Virus record (IMG/VR): IMGVR_UViG_3300005581_000085
Location: 1 to 29,906 of that record
Length of the DNA stretch: 29,906 nt
DNA from: a virus
Strand: one strand, 5' to 3'
The position numbers and the translations under genes were made by a program. Below the pieces are notes generated by a model. That model had not been told where the DNA came from and made no database searches. It was given only the letters and a program-made list of their open reading frames with translations. This document shows positions 2,219 through 24,033 of this stretch, in pieces. The first letter of the stretch is position 1. The number at the start of each line of letters is the position of its first letter.

Positions 2219-2235
2219 ATTTTAATCCTTTAAAA

Positions 2236-2243
2236 TATTTATC
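2236..2243 (-). promoter_or_regulatory. Candidate T4-like late promoter element
   Basis: GATAAATA (minus sense) matches seven of eight bases of the T4 late consensus TATAAATA. It lies 17 bases before the ATG at 2218 and 9 bases before the ribosome binding site AAAGGA. In an AT-rich genome such octamers also occur by chance, so the call is tentative. Confidence 0.35.
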
Positions 2244-2256
2244 AAATATAATGAGA

Positions 2257-2274
2257 AACCCGCCGAAGCGGGTT
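2257..2274 (-). terminator. Hairpin terminator at the end of the tmRNA gene
   Basis: The 7-bp stem AACCCGC/GCGGGTT with TTCG loop is the same as at 1646-1663, but the following tail (TTTCTCATTATATTT) has a weaker U-run. It ends the coding piece of the tmRNA precursor and precedes the gene at 1682-2218. Confidence 0.7.
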
Positions 2275-2276
2275 CT

Positions 2277-2638
2277 GAGTTTCTGTTACGAGGTATGTCT
2301 TACCCTAAGCGGCCTTTATCAGGCTGCTAATGCGAACTGTGAGTCGTTTGCGTTTACTTTTTTTGCTTCTACGACCAGGTTACCCCAATCCTACGGGTTC
2401 TGCTTTCCCGAGCTGTCCACTAATTTACTTGTTGCCCTGTCGAATCTAGGTCAGGCCCCTCAAAAAGATTCTTCCATCTGTCTAGTGCTTCAAAATAGCT
2501 AATCCAGACACATCCTTCACAGCCTCTACCACAACAAGTTGTTGGTTCTTTGGGTCTAGGATAAAAATCTTTTTGGTGGACCTGGGGGGATTCGCACCCC
2601 CGTCCAGAACACTTTTCTCTTTGCTTCATACAGCAATA
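2277..2638 (-). ncRNA. ssrA: Circularly permuted two-piece tmRNA (precursor)
   Basis: tmRNA frees stalled ribosomes and tags the unfinished peptide for proteolysis. Here the 3' (acceptor) part is transcribed first, about 2638 to 2574: a T arm GGGGG-TGCGAAT-CCCCC, then CAGGTCC, discriminator A and encoded CCA ending at 2574. An intervening segment 2573-2459 follows. The mature 5' end is at 2458, with GGGCCTG, then AGATTCGACAGGG typical of tmRNA 5' ends. GGGCCTG pairs with CAGGTCC over 7 bp, including the G3-U70 wobble that marks alanine acceptors. CAGGGCA (2439-2433) can pair with TGTTCTG (2611-2605) as helix P2. The tag frame lies at 2319-2351. A one-piece gene is excluded because only 64 bases separate the CCA end from the promoter. 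The 5' end of the acceptor piece and the 3' end of the coding piece are estimates. Confidence 0.93.
2319..2351 (-). other. tmRNA tag-peptide reading frame
   Basis: Reading from GCA at 2351 gives A-N-D-S-Q-F-A-L-A-A and a TGA stop. With the alanine carried by the tmRNA the added tag would be AANDSQFALAA. The terminal LAA is what ClpXP and ClpAP recognise. An upstream in-frame GCA at 2366 could in principle be the resume codon, adding A-K-K-V-N; GCA-AAC-GAC is preferred because it matches the usual proteobacterial tag start. Confidence 0.88.
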
Positions 2639-2644
2639 ACTTAC

Positions 2645-2673
2645 ATTATATATTTATTTGTGAATGCTGTCAA
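2645..2673 (-). promoter_or_regulatory. Consensus sigma-70 promoter of the tmRNA
   Basis: TTGACA (2673-2668), a 17-base spacer and TATAAT (2650-2645) match the bacterial consensus exactly. Transcription would start near 2638, at the beginning of the acceptor piece. The promoter overlaps the last codons and stop (2654-2656) of the sulfotransferase-like gene. AATAAATA within the spacer could also read as a T4-like late element. Confidence 0.88.
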
Positions 2674-3461: not shown

Positions 3462-4808
3462 TTAGTATCGATAAGTGTCAGGCTTAAATGGGCCAGCAAC
3501 TGGCACACCAATATAATCAGCTTGCACAGGCGTGAGCTCAGTTAACTGCGCACCAATCTGTTCAAGATGCAGGCGAGCAACTTTCTCATCCAAATGCTTG
3601 GGCAACAAATATATTTCACCACGATGGTAATTATCTGGGTTGGACCAAAGTTCTATTTGTGCCAATACCTGGTTGGTAAAGCTGTTGCTCATAACATAGC
3701 TGGGATGCCCGGTGCCACAGCCTAGATTAACCAAACGTCCTTTGGCCAACACAATAATCTTGCGACCATTTACTAATGTCACATGATCAACCAAGGGTTT
3801 GATTTCATCCCAGTGCGCATCTTGAATACCAGCAATGTCAATTTCGCTGTCAAAGTGACCAATGTTACAAACAATGGCATTTTCTTTCATGCACAGCATG
3901 TGTTCGCGAGTGATAACATTGATATTACCTGTGGCAGTGACAAAGATATCTGCTAGTCCTTTTGCGTATTCCATGGTTACAACCTTGTAACCTTCCATGG
4001 CCGCTTGTAATGCACAAATAGGATCAGTTTCTGTAACCCAAACTTGTGCGCTTAGAGCTCGCAGTGCTTGTGCACTACCCTTGCCTACATCACCGTAGCC
4101 ACACACCACAGCAACCTTGCCGGCAATCATAACATCAGTGGCACGTTTGATGGCATCTACTAGACTTTCACGGCAACCATACAAGTTATCAAACTTTGAT
4201 TTAGTCACGCTGTCATTGACGTTGATGGCAGGTATCATCAACGTACCGGCTTTGATACGCTCAATTAACTTGTGAATGCCAGTTGTGGTTTCTTCAGTGA
4301 CACCTTTGATGTTGGCAATGAGTTCTGGATGTTTATCATGGATATAACCGGTCAAATCATGTCCGTCATCTAGTATCATGTTAGGTGTCCACCCATCAGG
4401 TCCACGCACAGTCTGCTCAATACACCACCAGTACTCCTCTTCGGTTTCGCCCTTCCAAGCAAACACCGGAATACCCGTTACTGCTAGGGCAGCCGCGGCC
4501 TGATCTTGTGTTGAGAAAATATTGCATGAGCTCCAACGCACACTGGCACCAAGTTCAACTAGTGTTTCGATCAACACCGCTGTTTGGATAGTCATGTGCA
4601 AACTGCCCACGATACGTGCGCCAGCAAGTGGCTTTTTGCCGGCATACTCACGACGGAGTGCCATCAAGCCTGGCATTTCATGTTCGGCAATGGCAATCTC
4701 TTTGCGACCCCAATCGGCCAATGCAATGTCATGCACTTTGTAATCTGTGTATGTTTCGTGTACCTTCATGGTGTTTCCGTGTTGTATAAAATCTACTTGT
4801 GTTGTCAT
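3462..4808 (-). CDS. ahcY: S-adenosylhomocysteine hydrolase
   Basis: At 448 residues this is a full-length, NAD-dependent enzyme that splits S-adenosylhomocysteine into adenosine and homocysteine, removing the inhibitor of methyltransferases. Visible family marks are [11 protein letters not shown] at 69-79 (His71), ILDDGHD at 145-151, EETTTG at 172-177, [19 protein letters not shown] at 198-216 (substrate Lys204 and Asp208), the Rossmann motif GYGDVGKG at 237-244 and the C-terminal KPDTYRY. Nothing essential appears to be missing. AAAGGACAACA before the ATG supports this start, and ATGA overlaps the dadA stop, so the two are translationally coupled. This gene is uncommon in phages. Confidence 0.97.
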
Positions 4809-5983
4809 TGTTGTCCTTTAATTAATTTTGTTAGATTGTTTGCTGTGGCTGGACTCAATGTCCAACCCAGATGACCATGTCCCACATGGTAAAATACATT
4901 TTTATTATTTTTACTTTGCCCTATAATGGGCATCATATTTGGTGTCATTGGACGTAAACAGGCCCATTGACTATAGTCACGTGTACTTACCTTGGGAAAG
5001 TTGGTGTGCACCCAATTCAACAAAGGTTCAATACGATCTCGGCGTATGTCATAGTTAACTCCGGCCAGTTCGGCAGTGCCTGCAACACGGAATCTATCGC
5101 CTAATCTTGCGGTGACAATTTTGGCCCGATCATCTAGTAGACTTCTGTTGGGTGCAAATTTAACACCGGCATTGTCTAAGTTTACAGTGATACTATATCC
5201 TTTGACTGGGTAGATGGGATTGTAGTCACCGAGCTTATTGCTTAACGCAACACTGCCTACACCATTGGCAACAACAATTCGGTCAAAGGAATCCAACTCG
5301 TTGACATCCGTGATCTGCGTGTTATAGATAAATGCAACATGGTATTTTCTTGATAGTACATTGCTGAGTGCTACACAGAACTTGTGTATGTCCCCGGTCC
5401 AATCAGCCTCGGTCCAAGTACCACCCACAATATCATTGACATACCGCATGTTGGGTTCAATTTTTTTAATTTGTGTGGGTGTTAATATTTTCCACTCACA
5501 GCCATTGCTTTCATACATTGACTGCATACTCTTTGCATGCTCAAAGTATTTTTGATCTTTGTAAAAATGCAAAATGCCCGAAGGACTTTGATCAAATTCA
5601 AGACGCTCTCGTTGGATGATTTCTGCATATAATTGTCGGGATTCAATACCTAACCCAATAGTCTCTGCGGTATTACGATCTTTTACATTGCTGGCTGTGT
5701 GGTACAAGAATCTTGCCAGCCACTTGGCCTTGTCCCAATCCAAGCTGGGGCGAATAAGCAACGGCGCATCCTTTTTAAACATCCACATTGCGCCTTTGAT
5801 GACATTGCTCCAGGTGTTCCAAGTTTCGCTGTTGCTGACACTGACTTGCCCGCCATTGGCATAGCTGGTCTTCATGGCTGGGTACGCTTCTTCGTCAAAT
5901 ACTGTTACAGTACATCCTTCACGGGCCAAAAAATAAGCAGACGTCAACCCTGCAATGCCTGCTCCTATTACTGCTACGTTCAT
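4805..5983 (-). CDS. dadA: FAD-dependent D-amino-acid dehydrogenase, DadA-like
   Basis: The 392-residue protein begins with the FAD-binding GxGxxG (G7, G9, G12) and an acidic residue after beta-2 (VFDEE, 28-32). [12 protein letters not shown] at 40-51, [10 protein letters not shown] in the middle and [14 protein letters not shown] with [14 protein letters not shown] from about 368 are hallmarks of the DadA/DAO family. DadA converts D-amino acids, chiefly D-alanine, to 2-oxo acids and ammonia and passes electrons to the membrane chain. It is slightly shorter than E. coli DadA (432). AAGGAAAATA precedes the ATG. It is coupled to ahcY. Other members of the DAO fold, such as glycine or sarcosine oxidases, remain possible. 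Confidence 0.85.
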
Positions 5984-8436: not shown

Positions 8437-8514
8437 TGGTGGGCTGTCTGTGAGTCGAACACAGCACCAATGGATTATGAGTCCACTGCTCTAACCAACA
8501 TGAGCTAACAGCCC
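8437..8514 (-). tRNA. tRNA with CAU anticodon (Ile2 or Met)
   Basis: A complete cloverleaf is present: acceptor GGGCTGT/ACAGCCC, D arm GCTC/GAGC, anticodon stem GTGGA/TCCAT with loop CTCATAA, T arm CTGTG-TTCGACT-CACAG, discriminator A and an encoded CCA. The CAU anticodon fits elongator Met or, after lysidine modification, Ile for AUA codons; the initiator is unlikely because the first base pair is G-C and the anticodon stem lacks three G-C pairs. The segment GCAG..GACTCATAATC..TTGGT resembles bacterial tRNA-Ile2, so I favour that slightly. Confidence 0.95.
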
Positions 8515-9865: not shown

Positions 9866-10144
9866 TTACATGCTCCAATAAGTTTCGCTGGCAGGGTTGC
9901 AACACCACGGAGTGTCTGCATCAATTGTAACAGGCTTACCGCTCATCAAATTCTTTACAACAATTTTTGGAGCACGATAAGTGTCACGAGCAACAATGTT
10001 GAGTTGGCTTTCGTTCCAACCTGCTTTGTTGCACAACCGAGTTCTAGTAGCCTTAGCGGCACCAAAAGTCTTGTAAGCCCGAGTCTTGTTGGGACCGTCT
10101 GTGACAATAAGTCCTGTACCTTTTGCAACGATTACGTATGACAT
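9866..10144 (-). CDS. Small basic hypothetical protein
   Basis: The 92-residue protein starts MSYVIVAKGTGLIVTDGPNK, with AAAGGAACTTTAT before the ATG. RAYKTFGAAKATRTRLCNKA suggests a basic helical stretch that could contact nucleic acid. It is the first gene behind the promoter at 10176-10204 and heads the run of small genes down to the tRNA promoter. I recall similar proteins in T4-like aquatic phages; function unknown. Confidence 0.75.
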   Translation of the reverse strand: MSYVIVAKGTGLIVTDGPNKTRAYKTFGAAKATRTRLCNKAGWNESQLNIVARDTYRAPKIVVKNLMSGKPVTIDADTPWCCNPASETYWSM

Positions 10145-10175
10145 ATAAAGTTCCTTTGTTTCTTACTATACTTCT

Positions 10176-10204
10176 ATTATAGCAAATTGGGGTTTTTTGG
10201 TCAA
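10176..10204 (-). promoter_or_regulatory. Strong promoter with extended -10
   Basis: TTGACC (10204-10199), 17 bases and TATAAT (10181-10176), the last preceded by TGC, make an extended -10 sigma-70-type promoter. The start would be near 10169, giving a 25-base leader with a ribosome binding site for the gene at 9866-10144. It shares sequence with the promoter at 10568-10596 (both have TTTGCTATAATA or TTTTGCTATAATA). Confidence 0.82.
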
Positions 10205-10213
10205 CCAAAATCA

Positions 10214-10233
10214 GTGTTGTTTTTAAACAACAC
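10214..10233 (-). terminator. Hairpin at the stop codon of the GIY-YIG gene
   Basis: GTGTTGTT pairs with AACAACAC around a four-base loop; the TAA stop of the GIY-YIG gene lies in the loop. A TGATTTTGG tail follows, a weak U-run. A related hairpin (TGTTGTA/TACAACA) ends the next gene upstream. Confidence 0.5.
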
Positions 10234-10561
10234 CGCGTACATCAGTATTTAGGTTGGGACGGAGTTCACGAATTAAGGCACGTTCTGCGGTGTGTGCTTC
10301 TGTTTTACCACGCACCACTGCAACAATACGGAACTGGAAAGCATCAGTGCCACGCTCACGAATTGCTTCGTACAAAGCCCAGCTTTTGTCTTCGCTACGT
10401 GAGCGATAGATGTGCTTGTTGACACGTGTTTTAACACTCTTCAAAACAGTGCTTTCTGTCTTGGCAGTGACGCCAATGTAGAAGTCTGTGCCGCTCTCAA
10501 TACGGTAAATGATGTGAGTGCGATCTGCACGTTTTTTTCGGGTTGCTTTTTTAATTTCCAT
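10223..10561 (-). CDS. GIY-YIG endonuclease-like protein
   Basis: From the ATG at 10561 the protein is 112 residues, the size of one GIY-YIG domain. IIYRI at 17-21 and FYIG at 27-30 are the two signature strands; Arg46, His50 and the Glu of [10 protein letters not shown] (Glu93) fit the catalytic Arg and metal-binding Glu. The N-terminus [10 protein letters not shown] is strongly basic. Phage GIY-YIG proteins may be homing nucleases or repair enzymes; no partner DNA-binding domain is present. It stands alone between its own promoter and a hairpin, and the promoter geometry predicts a leaderless transcript. Confidence 0.82.
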
Positions 10562-10567
10562 ACTAGT

Positions 10568-10596
10568 ATTATAGCAAAATGGGAATTTCTGGCCAA
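10568..10596 (-). promoter_or_regulatory. Promoter of the GIY-YIG gene, predicted leaderless
   Basis: TTGGCC (10596-10591), 17 bases and TATAAT (10573-10568) with TGC before it. Only six bases (ACTAGT) lie between the -10 element and the ATG at 10561, so the transcript should begin at or next to the start codon. Confidence 0.8.
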
Positions 10597-10626
10597 CCAA
10601 AAAATGCCAGATTTCTTCAAATAAAG

Positions 10627-10644
10627 TGTTGTATTTTTACAACA
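10627..10644 (-). terminator. Hairpin terminator of the small membrane gene
   Basis: TGTTGTA/TACAACA, 7 bp with a four-base loop, lies right at the stop codon (10645-10647) of the 76-residue membrane protein gene and is followed by CTTTATTTG. It is similar in sequence to the hairpin at 10214-10233. Confidence 0.55.
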
Positions 10645-10875
10645 TTAACTGAAATATCGGTAAGCTAGCCCTGCAAAACCGGTAAAAGTCATGATGAAGT
10701 TAGTGGTTACTAACGCTGGTTCCTGCCATCTAATACTGACTATTAACCAAATTAATCCACCAATACCCAATATTAATGGACCTTCTGGATAATATCCCAA
10801 ACTATTAACAGCAGTTCCGATAATCAATACTACAGTACCGGCCCATTTTAAATAGAAATTTAAATCTTTATTCAT
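10645..10875 (-). CDS. Small membrane protein
   Basis: The 76-residue protein has hydrophobic segments at about 10-27, 34-48 and 57-72, separated by the short loops NSLGYYPEGP and RWQEP. It starts MNKDLNFYLKWAG and appears to be an integral membrane protein with two or three helices; I recall the same protein from marine phages, function unknown. It has its own promoter six bases before the ATG and its own hairpin terminator, so it is expressed alone. Confidence 0.78.
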   Translation of the reverse strand: MNKDLNFYLKWAGTVVLIIGTAVNSLGYYPEGPLILGIGGLIWLIVSIRWQEPALVTTNFIMTFTGFAGLAYRYFS

Positions 10876-10881
10876 GTTAAT

Positions 10882-10910
10882 ATTATAGTATAAAACAATT
10901 TAATGGTCAA
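10882..10910 (-). promoter_or_regulatory. Promoter of the small membrane gene, predicted leaderless
   Basis: TTGACC (10910-10905), 17 bases and TATAAT (10887-10882). Six bases (ATTAAC) separate the -10 element from the ATG at 10875, the same geometry as the GIY-YIG promoter. The stop codon of the upstream gene (10909-10907) lies inside the -35 element. Confidence 0.8.
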
Positions 10911-11269
10911 CCGCTGGTGGTTAAAAATCTTTCAAGGTCGCCCCATAATGTAATCATCATGGCATCCTTACTTCCAAATAGCCAGATATTTTCCCATTTA
11001 TTTTTTGATTTTTCTAGATAATACGGACAATTGATTTTGCTACTTAATGCCAATAATAGTTTTGGGGTTATTGAAAATGAGTTGATTGAGAATCGATAAT
11101 ATTCAAGATCTAATATATCAACAAATACATCACAGCCTTTTTCAGTCAATCTATAACCACGACTATTATGTTTACTAACCCACCATTGAGATAATGCTTG
11201 ATCTATGGTTATTTGATTGTCTGTTGGCAGTATGTTTACCAACCGGGTAGTTAAATCACGCTTGATCAC
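10907..11269 (-). CDS. Conserved phage hypothetical protein, GTG start
   Basis: The 120-residue protein starts with GTG at 11269 and overlaps the upstream gene by 14 bases; no in-frame ATG lies near. MIKRDLTTRLVNILPTDNQI, the central GYRLTEKGCDVFVDI and SKINCPYYLEK match a protein I recall as conserved in cyanophages. The middle part could be a winged-helix-like fold (RLTEKGCDVF is typical of winged-helix recognition regions), but this is uncertain. No enzyme motif is seen. Confidence 0.75.
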   Translation of the reverse strand: MIKRDLTTRLVNILPTDNQITIDQALSQWWVSKHNSRGYRLTEKGCDVFVDILDLEYYRFSINSFSITPKLLLALSSKINCPYYLEKSKNKWENIWLFGSKDAMMITLWGDLERFLTTSG

Positions 11270-16993: not shown

Positions 16994-17379
16994 GATACTT
17001 CTTTGCGCCCATTACCTATGTCGCGAATTTGAGAACCACGTCCGGGATTCATTGCTTGCTCTTGTTCCCATGTTTCCATGACCACATGTCTGCAAACATT
17101 CAGGAACCAACGATCGATAATCTCTGCATCAGAGTCTGTGGGTTTGCCTTGGTAACCAGCACGTATCAAATTGGCAACAAACTTATCATTCCAGTCCAAC
17201 TCAAATGCACCTTGGTGCATGTTTTCAGGATCCACATCCATACTAAGAATTGCCACATAGGGCTCGCCTTTTTCTGTGGCAATTTCCTTGGCTGTCTTGG
17301 CGGCTTTCTTTTCTTTAGGTTCCGCCACTGACTTGATTTCTGGCTGTTTCTTTTTAAAGATATCTAATAGTCCCATCAT
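16990..17379 (-). CDS. Conserved aquatic-phage hypothetical protein
   Basis: The ATG at 17379 overlaps the queE stop (ATGATG); the protein is 129 residues. It opens MMGLLDIFKKKQPE, has a Lys/Ala-rich linker and then GEPYVAILSMDVDPENM, GAFELDWNDKFVANLIRAGY and ETWEQEQAMNPGRG, ending RDIGNGRKEVS. I recall this whole pattern as one of the widely shared hypothetical proteins of T4-like cyanophages, where it is also close to metabolic genes. Function unknown. It supports the phage reading of the window. A start at 17388 would add three residues. Confidence 0.82.
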   Translation of the reverse strand: MMGLLDIFKKKQPEIKSVAEPKEKKAAKTAKEIATEKGEPYVAILSMDVDPENMHQGAFELDWNDKFVANLIRAGYQGKPTDSDAEIIDRWFLNVCRHVVMETWEQEQAMNPGRGSQIRDIGNGRKEVS

Positions 17380-18248
17380 TTGCCCCATCCATTGCCCCAG
17401 AGGTCAACGTGTAGTCGCGGACTGTAGTAGTATCCTTTGCTACATGCCCAGTCTGCAACCTTTACACGGTTGGCAGCATACGGAGTTACAACCCCGCCCT
17501 GTGGCATAACGTATACAACCCCAGTAAAGCCGCCTGCTCTAAACTCTTTTACAGCACGTTCAACTTCTGCAAAGTGTTCTTCAGTTTCAACAACAAACTT
17601 GAGATAAACCGTGCCAAGTTCTTGATAGCTGGCAACAATCTCGGGACAGATAGCTTCCTCCCACTTCTCTCCACTAGCACTAAGTTTGGCGCTGACACTA
17701 AAAGTTACAAACCGATCTTGTTTGCTGCCAAGTGCTGGTTGTTGCCATGCTTGTAAGAAATTTCTAAAACCTGGCTGTAATTTTTGAGTCCCGTTGGTTT
17801 CAAATGTAATGTTACGCAAGTCTGTCATGTAAGTATTGCTAATCAATTCTTCATAGGCACGTTGCCAACCCAACAATGGTTCTCCACCTGTGATAACAAG
17901 ATGTACATCGTTGCCGTTGTCCTGCACCCACTTATGATTGGGCGTTAGATTTAGCATATCCGTTACTAACTGTTTAGTTTCCACTGTGGGGCTTAGATGT
18001 TTGAAGTCTGGGTGCCAACTAGCATAACTGTCACAACCAGTGTTAACAAGTGGCAAGCTCATGAAGTCTGGGTACAAGTGCACATTTTTAGCAACTTCGT
18101 CGGCTTCTGTACTTTTTGCGCCTGGCGCACACCCAAAGCCAGCACAGGTAAAATTACACCCAAATGTGCGTAAAAACACACTGGGTACACCAACAAAACG
18201 TCCTTCGCCTTGTGCGGAATAGAATAGCTCACTTACTTTAAGTTTCAT
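17376..18248 (-). CDS. queE: 7-carboxy-7-deazaguanine synthase
   Basis: QueE is a radical SAM enzyme turning 6-carboxytetrahydropterin into 7-carboxy-7-deazaguanine. The 290-residue protein shows FYSAQGEGRFVGVPSVFLRT at 9-28, TFGCNFTC with Cys31 and Cys35, ITGGEPLL, FETNGT and the C-terminal RLHVDLWGNGWGK. The third cluster cysteine is unusual: Cys40 (four residues after Cys35) or Cys72 in NTGCDSYASW, so the plain CxxxCxxC spacing is absent. It is longer than E. coli QueE (223), partly by an insert at about 40-95. It overlaps the radical SAM paralog by 11 bases. With folE and queD nearby, it fits a partial preQ0 pathway. Confidence 0.92.
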   Translation of the reverse strand: MKLKVSELFYSAQGEGRFVGVPSVFLRTFGCNFTCAGFGCAPGAKSTEADEVAKNVHLYPDFMSLPLVNTGCDSYASWHPDFKHLSPTVETKQLVTDMLNLTPNHKWVQDNGNDVHLVITGGEPLLGWQRAYEELISNTYMTDLRNITFETNGTQKLQPGFRNFLQAWQQPALGSKQDRFVTFSVSAKLSASGEKWEEAICPEIVASYQELGTVYLKFVVETEEHFAEVERAVKEFRAGGFTGVVYVMPQGGVVTPYAANRVKVADWACSKGYYYSPRLHVDLWGNGWGK

Positions 18249-23343: not shown

Positions 23344-24033
23344 TTATCTTTTACAGTTATTTACAATATTCATAAATTCGTTTCTCACTGCTGGGTCTGT
23401 TTTAAACACACCGCCTAGTTTAGATGTAACTGTGCTTGACCCAACATCTTCTACACCGCGAGATTTAACGCAATAATGTTGAGCATCAATGACGACTGCA
23501 ACATTATCAGTTTCTAGAATATACTGAAGTGCATGATACACTTGTTCTGTTAAGCGTTCCTGAATTTGTGGACGCTTGCTAAAGTACTCAACAACACGAT
23601 TGATTTTACTTAGACCCAGCACACGTTGATTGGGAATATAACCCACTGTGGCCACACCGTCAATGACAACAAAGTGATGTTCGCAATTACTCTGTACATT
23701 GACATTTCGTTCAATGACCATTTCGTCATACTTCATCTTGTTGTCAACTGTGGTACACTTTGGAAATGCTTCGTAGTCAAGCCCCCAAAAGATTTCATTC
23801 ACATACATCTTGGCAACACGTTTGGGTGTATCCATTAAACTATCATCAGATAAATCTAACCCTAAAGTTGTCATAATCTTTTGAAATTGTTCTGTAATGA
23901 TTTCAATTTTTATTTTTCTATCAAGATTTGCACCACGTGTATCCCACGTTGGTGTCTCAACACCCATTTTGACTAAGTGTTCATGTACTTTTAATCCCAG
24001 TTCAGGGTCGCATTTTGTTTTGTTATAGCTCAT
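23344..24033 (-). CDS. folE: GTP cyclohydrolase I
   Basis: FolE converts GTP to 7,8-dihydroneopterin triphosphate, the entry to folate and to 7-deazaguanines. At 229 residues it is close to E. coli FolE (222), with the zinc ligands Cys117 and His120 (SNCEHH), Cys188 and catalytic His186 (AQHYC), and TPKRVAKMY at 69-77. LGLSKINRVVEYFSKRPQIQ at 139-158 is the conserved pterin-site region, and VEDVGSSTVTSKLGG is near the end. The first 40 residues are an N-terminal extension typical of the family. AAGGAAGG precedes the ATG. Its leader can fold as a pseudoknot. With QueD and QueE it suggests 7-deazaguanine rather than folate synthesis. Confidence 0.95.
   Translation of the reverse strand: MSYNKTKCDPELGLKVHEHLVKMGVETPTWDTRGANLDRKIKIEIITEQFQKIMTTLGLDLSDDSLMDTPKRVAKMYVNEIFWGLDYEAFPKCTTVDNKMKYDEMVIERNVNVQSNCEHHFVVIDGVATVGYIPNQRVLGLSKINRVVEYFSKRPQIQERLTEQVYHALQYILETDNVAVVIDAQHYCVKSRGVEDVGSSTVTSKLGGVFKTDPAVRNEFMNIVNNCKR

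Follow-up and report, generated by a model that had tools for sequence, protein, structure and literature searches.

A promoter family with leadered and predicted leaderless gene units in a group of jumbo phages

The window analysed here is the whole 29,906-base stretch of a virus record, and its sequence was read on both strands. Within 735 bases of the minus strand, which carries all the genes concerned, one promoter type is found in three copies (P1, P2 and P3; Table 1). The question raised by this locus is whether the messages of two of the genes begin on the start codon itself, i.e. are leaderless, and whether such an arrangement is kept among relatives. An earlier note on this DNA had described TTG(A/G)CC-N17-TATAAT, six bases and ATG before a membrane protein gene and a GIY-YIG gene, and a third, similar promoter with a normal leader before the next gene. 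Both descriptions are borne out by the sequence: P1 precedes the 76-aa gene and P2 the GIY-YIG gene, and the 31 nt between P3 and the 92-aa gene include AAGGAA.

Table 1. Promoters, genes, hairpins and predicted leader of the region, in window coordinates.
Feature	Position	Strand	Details
Promoter P1	10882..10910	-	TTGACC 10910-10905, N17, TATAAT 10887-10882; then ATTAAC, ATG at 10875
76-aa membrane protein gene, DUF6552 (PF20189), predicted leaderless	10645..10875	-	Predicted RNA start at 10875
Hairpin TGTTGT-AAAAAT-ACAACA	10627..10644	-	Directly past the DUF6552 stop; absent from the list of terminator-like hairpins
Promoter P2	10568..10596	-	TTGGCC 10596-10591, N17, TATAAT 10573-10568; then ACTAGT, ATG at 10561
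GIY-YIG nuclease-like gene, 112 aa, predicted leaderless	10223..10561	-	Predicted RNA start at 10561
Hairpin CGGTGTTGTTTAAAAACAACACTG	10212..10235	-	Spans the GIY-YIG stop codon; scored terminator-like
Promoter P3	10176..10204	-	TTGACC 10204-10199, N17, TATAAT 10181-10176; then 31 nt including AAGGAA, ATG at 10144
Predicted 25-nt leader of the 92-aa gene	10145..10169	-	AUAGUAAG..., AAGGAA 10156-10151; start taken from the pyrimidine-A position common to both classes
92-aa gene	9866..10144	-	Relatives keep a Shine-Dalgarno leader

Promoters and genes of the region

P1, P2 and P3 are the only exact matches to TTGNCC-N17-TATAAT in the 29.9-kb window. A local scan gave 12 promoter-like sites, one of them entered twice with a second spacing, and P1 to P3 rank as the top three. 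Since shuffled local sequence yields 9.4 such sites (sd 3.2), the count in the region alone is not above chance; the evidence against chance is comparative and consists of the promoter matches in jumbo-phage records and of the spacing kept across relatives. The -10 boxes of P1 and P2 are placed for a start at the start codon and a Shine-Dalgarno motif is absent, the two features expected of leaderless genes, so that by sequence both genes are classed as predicted leaderless.

The 112-aa protein scores 21.6 bits against the Pfam GIY-YIG model, below the cut-off of 22.6, and a PHROG search returns homing endonuclease matches. GIY-YIG nucleases have conserved Tyr, Arg, Glu and Asn residues to which roles are assigned, and in an alignment of 17 sequences Y19, Y28, G30, R46, E93 and N105 are invariant. 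The predicted model has a mean pLDDT of 71, and its best fold match in Foldseek is the I-TevI catalytic domain (PDB: 1ln0; TM 0.59/0.69, probability 1.00), yet with 19% identity and an E-value of 0.034. I-TevI has a long DNA-binding part, for which a protein of 112 residues has no room. The fold match and the conserved residues agree with a GIY-YIG protein, which we call nuclease-like by its sequence and predicted structure. Three designed repeat proteins returned when the alignment was searched against the sequences of solved structures were judged chance matches. Neither the GIY-YIG protein nor the 76-aa protein nor the DNA of the locus had a match in the phage collection.

The window region is most likely part of a jumbo phage, of the T4 type as judged from ten related jumbo records, nine of which have a Gp23-type major capsid protein (Pfam: PF07068). 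A permuted tmRNA gene of the beta-proteobacterial type is found at window positions 2228-2666 on the minus strand (Rfam tmRNA_permuted 116 bits, beta_tmRNA 108.5 bits); its tag is ANDSQFALAA and its type hints at a beta-proteobacterial host. A tRNA with a CAU anticodon (8437-8514, minus strand) is preceded by a TTGACA/TATAAT promoter-like site, and its first base pair, G-C, suggests that it is not an initiator tRNA. By the look of the sequence, we take the genes at 3462-4808, 4805-5983, 17376-18248 and 23344-24033 to be an S-adenosylhomocysteine hydrolase, an amino-acid oxidase-like, a QueE-like radical SAM and a GTP cyclohydrolase I-like gene, respectively.

Leader type in three gene families and across jumbo-phage records

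Relatives of the GIY-YIG gene were gathered by the protein alone and not by the promoter. Among the best 80 of 176 loci (73-100% identity), the -10 box is 6 nt from the ATG in 72 and 5 nt in 8, TATAAT is perfect in 79 and the -35 box is TTGACC or TTGACT in 74. Two further scans (best 80 of 380 and best 80 of 286) brought the set to 227 loci, of which 97 are distinct by upstream plus gene sequence. All 97 distinct relatives (best 80 per scan) have the ATG 5-6 nt past the -10 box, 96 of them by script (88 at 6 nt and 8 at 5 nt) and one by eye; in the latter, L476, the script had picked an ATG within the promoter, and by eye the arrangement is TATAAT-AAGAAC-ATG, i.e. 6 nt. The bases between the box and the ATG form 28 different strings, all 28 ending in C or T, so it is the length that is conserved. 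In bacterial and archaeal genome contigs, 43 stretches matched the pattern of these relatives and none was confirmed.

The 76-aa membrane protein matches DUF6552 at a Pfam E-value of 6.6e-8, and three sister proteins match the same family at 1.1e-5, 3.7e-5 and 6.3e-8, the first two slightly under the cut-off. Relatives were sought with an alignment headed by L141, a sister protein that is 31% identical to that of the window and itself came from the promoter-pattern scan; the best 80 of the 213 loci reduce to 49 distinct ones, 45 with the ATG at 6 nt and 4 without such a promoter nearby. Eight loci were found with the window's own 76-aa protein and inspected by eye: two have the six-base arrangement (L204, and L209 with TACAAT), and in the remaining six no such promoter stands before the gene.

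The 92-aa protein has no Pfam or PHROG match at an E-value of 0.01. Partial matches occur in the named phages Phosso and DLP_6, in whose records no such promoters were found. The best 80 of its 173 loci reduce to 47 distinct relatives, all of which have a Shine-Dalgarno motif; the -10 box is 28-31 nt from the ATG in 44 of them and 6 nt away in none. Leadered units of the P3 type (e.g. window 10169-10160) often share a 5' AUAGUAA, followed by an A-rich stretch and AAGGAG. Judged by sequence, each of the three families tested keeps its predicted leader type even across long divergence.

The same promoter is found well beyond these families. TTGACC-N17-TATAAT with an ATG within 31 nt gives 171 pattern matches in 10 jumbo-phage records, a count in which a promoter with several ATGs appears repeatedly and in which G005 and G006 share sites; the matches have a single orientation per record, and the reversed control pattern gives 0. 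Four jumbo phages, 316-353 kb in size and all with a gene for a Gp23-type capsid protein, were scanned piece by piece. Three of them (G001, G002 and G004) had entered via the GIY-YIG gene and one (G009) via the promoter pattern. Before ORFs of at least 60 aa in these four phages, TATAAT stands at distance 6 from the ATG in 25 cases and in 0-8 cases at each of the other distances from 0 to 15, and 19 permuted hexamers give at most 12 cases at distance 6. Leaving out G009 and the GIY-YIG gene, 17 cases remain at distance 6 and 0-7 elsewhere, with at most 10 for the permuted hexamers.

Out of 152 TTGAC/TATAAT pairs with spacers of 12-22 bases in the four phages, 124 have a spacer of 17, 11 of 18 and 5 of 16 (87 of 112 at 17 without G009), and TG precedes the -10 box in 79 of the 124. 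This spacing fits sigma70-type promoters. In the four phages the T4 late motif TATAAATA occurs 28 times on the coding strand against a permutation median of 36, i.e. without enrichment, so no early/late contrast can be drawn; going by the promoter, the units are presumably of an early class. A Shine-Dalgarno-like motif was found before only one of 189 leaderless candidates, a set for which class counts are biased because it includes loci selected for distance 6, and of which we used only the base compositions and the Shine-Dalgarno count. Other leaderless candidates in the four phages include UvdE-like (Pfam: PF03851), Rv2179c-like exonuclease (Pfam: PF16473) and gamma-glutamyl cyclotransferase-like (Pfam: PF06094) genes.

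Transcription start and alternative readings

Leadered genes have no ATG constraint at positions 6-7 past the -10 box, and there a pyrimidine (88%) is followed by A (73%). In the four phages pyrimidine-A is present at these positions in 46 of 75 leadered units and absent in 29, and a pyrimidine stands before the ATG in 22 of 24 leaderless units. Because leadered genes show pyrimidine-A at the same place, the A of the ATG is most likely the first base of the RNA in the six-base units. The earlier note's placing of the start site on the ATG is in this way strongly supported by comparison, through the spacing kept in relatives and the absence of a Shine-Dalgarno motif. Lower 5' structure was not seen in the leaderless genes of the four phages (mean -5.4 vs -3.4 kcal/mol for leadered transcripts, over 50 nt), and their codons 2-8 are not clearly richer in A (0.41 vs 0.38).

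We hold with good confidence to a joint explanation that comprises a jumbo-phage promoter family, leadered and leaderless units, a leader type bound to the gene family and possible recombination at the promoter. Small single-gene units would be driven by a single family of strong sigma70-like promoters (TTGACC-N17-TATAAT, often with a TG ahead of the -10 box), and the host sigma70 polymerase would make RNA from an A seven bases past the -10 box, usually after a pyrimidine. In most units this A would open a leader of about 20-26 nt with AAGGAG or a variant. In a minority, to which the DUF6552 membrane gene and the GIY-YIG gene of the window would belong, it would be the A of the ATG, and the mRNA would therefore be leaderless. 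Initiation would presumably be by 70S ribosomes. Such an mRNA would be read by ribosomes that bind its 5'-terminal AUG, as reviewed for leaderless mRNA (PMC9031893).

One point against a fixed start is the group of eight GIY-YIG loci (best 80 of 176) with 5 nt, in which the seventh base past the -10 box is no longer the A of the ATG. RNA polymerases commonly shift their start site by a few bases, and in some messages the RNA might begin 1-3 nt off the A, with a very short leader or a partial AUG, so that the units would be near-leaderless or mixed. Given the 29 leadered units that lack pyrimidine-A, the start site may indeed vary, but the pair is the commonest one at that position in the leadered class and every GIY-YIG discriminator string ends in a pyrimidine, and we think such mixed starts unlikely. 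The main transcripts could also start upstream, with the ATG-adjacent promoter a minor one and translation coupled to the previous gene. The genes are closely packed on one strand, the TGA stop (10909-10907) of the upstream 120-aa gene (ORF 10907-11269) falls inside the -35 box of P1, and the six promoter-less loci found with the 76-aa protein agree with this as well. Upstream starts are nevertheless very improbable in our view, as the near-consensus promoter is kept in the 97 distinct GIY-YIG relatives (best 80 per scan) despite a changing upstream neighbour and the ATGs of the 189 candidates have next to no Shine-Dalgarno-like motifs. Least credible is a start of translation further in than the ATG next to the -10 box: among 26 leaderless candidates of the four phages, 2 do have an additional Shine-Dalgarno-led ATG 30 nt past the -10 box, but M1 is the sole Met of the window GIY-YIG protein, all 17 of the 17 aligned relatives share it, and codon periodicity begins at the near ATG.

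Exchange of units and comparison with known systems

The earlier note had also seen related TGTTGT hairpins at the ends of the units, as if these had been moved or duplicated as cassettes. Both hairpins are real (Table 1), but they are not specific to the units. TGTTG...CAACA has 159 matches in the four phages, of which 111 fall inside genes and 12 precede such a promoter by no more than 80 nt; hairpins were rejected as a mark of these units. Hairpins of at least six pairs lie upstream of 8 of 22 leaderless and 17 of 70 leadered promoters versus 88 of 1360 random places, and a U-rich stretch follows in 7 of these 25 (2 leaderless and 5 leadered). Hairpins are enriched before promoters, yet they are not general and are seldom terminator-like.

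When loci were compared for the presence or absence of each unit, the GIY-YIG gene was found to keep its place among the best 80 of 176: a u100 gene lies upstream of it in 73 loci, within 1.6 kb in 67. Its other neighbours vary: of the same 80 loci, 1 has the 76-aa gene immediately upstream and 5 have the 92-aa gene immediately downstream. The constant place is compatible with homing or with none. As for the features of a moron, an own promoter is present and the 76-aa and 92-aa units vary beside the GIY-YIG gene, and the hairpins seldom resemble terminators.

In its DNA the window GIY-YIG gene is 82-93% identical to 14 relatives (L005-L018). Promoter spacers hardly differ within this group (0.88-1.00 identity among seven compared pairwise). 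The P2 spacer of the window is 47% identical to those spacers, yet agrees in 17 of 17 bases with the spacer of a leadered L250 unit. The comparison suggests that in this one lineage the promoter core of the GIY-YIG gene was exchanged within the promoter, perhaps with the arrival of the DUF6552 unit; the spacer is close to the general family pattern, so convergence is possible too. As the 29 bp of promoter at the head of the units are nearly identical, recombination within them may let units swap promoters and neighbours. The palindrome GATAATATTATC, with repeats and variants, was seen by eye less than about 200 bases upstream of the GIY-YIG gene in L005, L008, L009, L011, L012, L015 and L083, in the stretch that corresponds to the DUF6552 unit of the window.

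Both units might be mobile cassettes with terminators at their ends, which would be compatible with leaderless messages. The differing neighbours, the agreement of the P2 spacer with the L250 unit instead of L005-L018 and the terminator-like score of the GIY-YIG hairpin argue for this, and the u100 gene kept upstream of the GIY-YIG gene and the scarcity of U-rich stretches after hairpins argue against it. We regard such cassettes as possible, with more doubt than belief. What stands of the cassette claim is the change of neighbours and one suggested promoter exchange; the GIY-YIG gene was not seen to move.

Returning to the promoter family with its two leader classes, these could act as two translation channels, in which a fixed leaderless set stays translated when the phage alters initiation, for example with its own bS21. 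We consider this rather improbable, and see as little likelihood that the set is made up of the GIY-YIG gene, the DUF6552 membrane protein gene and, in single phages, UvdE-like and exonuclease-like genes. bS21 (Pfam: PF01165) is found in six of the ten jumbo records (G002, G004, G007, G008, G009 and G010). The four without a match (G001, G003, G005 and G006) have leaderless GIY-YIG units (L011, L054, L070 and L073), so bS21 is not required for such units. IF3 (Pfam: PF00707) was found in none of the ten. If the idea of two channels is true, the phage would regulate by its choice of leader type, and units could pass from one channel to the other at the shared 29-bp promoter. This jumbo-phage group, met as metagenome contigs only, appears to fix leader type by gene family, and its matched sets of leaderless and leadered units under one promoter type are a natural test set for the use of leaderless initiation in infection. 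Genes of this kind may be overlooked, or given a wrong start, by gene callers that rely on Shine-Dalgarno signals.

Leaderless mRNA is already known. The open-licence literature searched yielded neither a leaderless class fixed by gene family nor any account of leaderless units for this phage group, and no PA5oct paper with mapped 5' ends. In the available parts of PMC11845039 and PMC9004378 the word 'leaderless' occurs in the reference lists only, and that of PMC7824862 does not contain it.

The jumbo phages PA5oct and XaC1 are the top named records for the neighbouring 5'-3' exonuclease, with 48-50% identity, and PA5oct has a QueE gene nearby. TTGAC-N18-TATAAT with an ATG within 31 nt is found 6 times in PA5oct (reversed control 1) and 0 times in XaC1 (control 5). 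At the distance-6 match of PA5oct there is no annotated gene, and at its distance-7 match the ATG is the annotated start (158242) of an exonuclease gene.

The cI mRNA of phage lambda starts at its AUG and comes from a single regulator gene. The messages predicted here would likewise be phage mRNAs that start at AUG, but they come from many units distributed over a large phage genome. Both lambda and cI come up in PMC3160421 and PMC9031893, and phage transcripts are often leaderless according to one paper (PMC5312081). Bacterial 'TA-led' genes, whose start codon lies about 10-12 bp past a -10-like box, were taken as leaderless by Zheng et al. 2011 (PMC3160421). In contrast to these bacterial genes as described there, the units reported here belong to jumbo phages, have a full -35/-10 promoter and fall into two predicted leader classes that follow the gene family.
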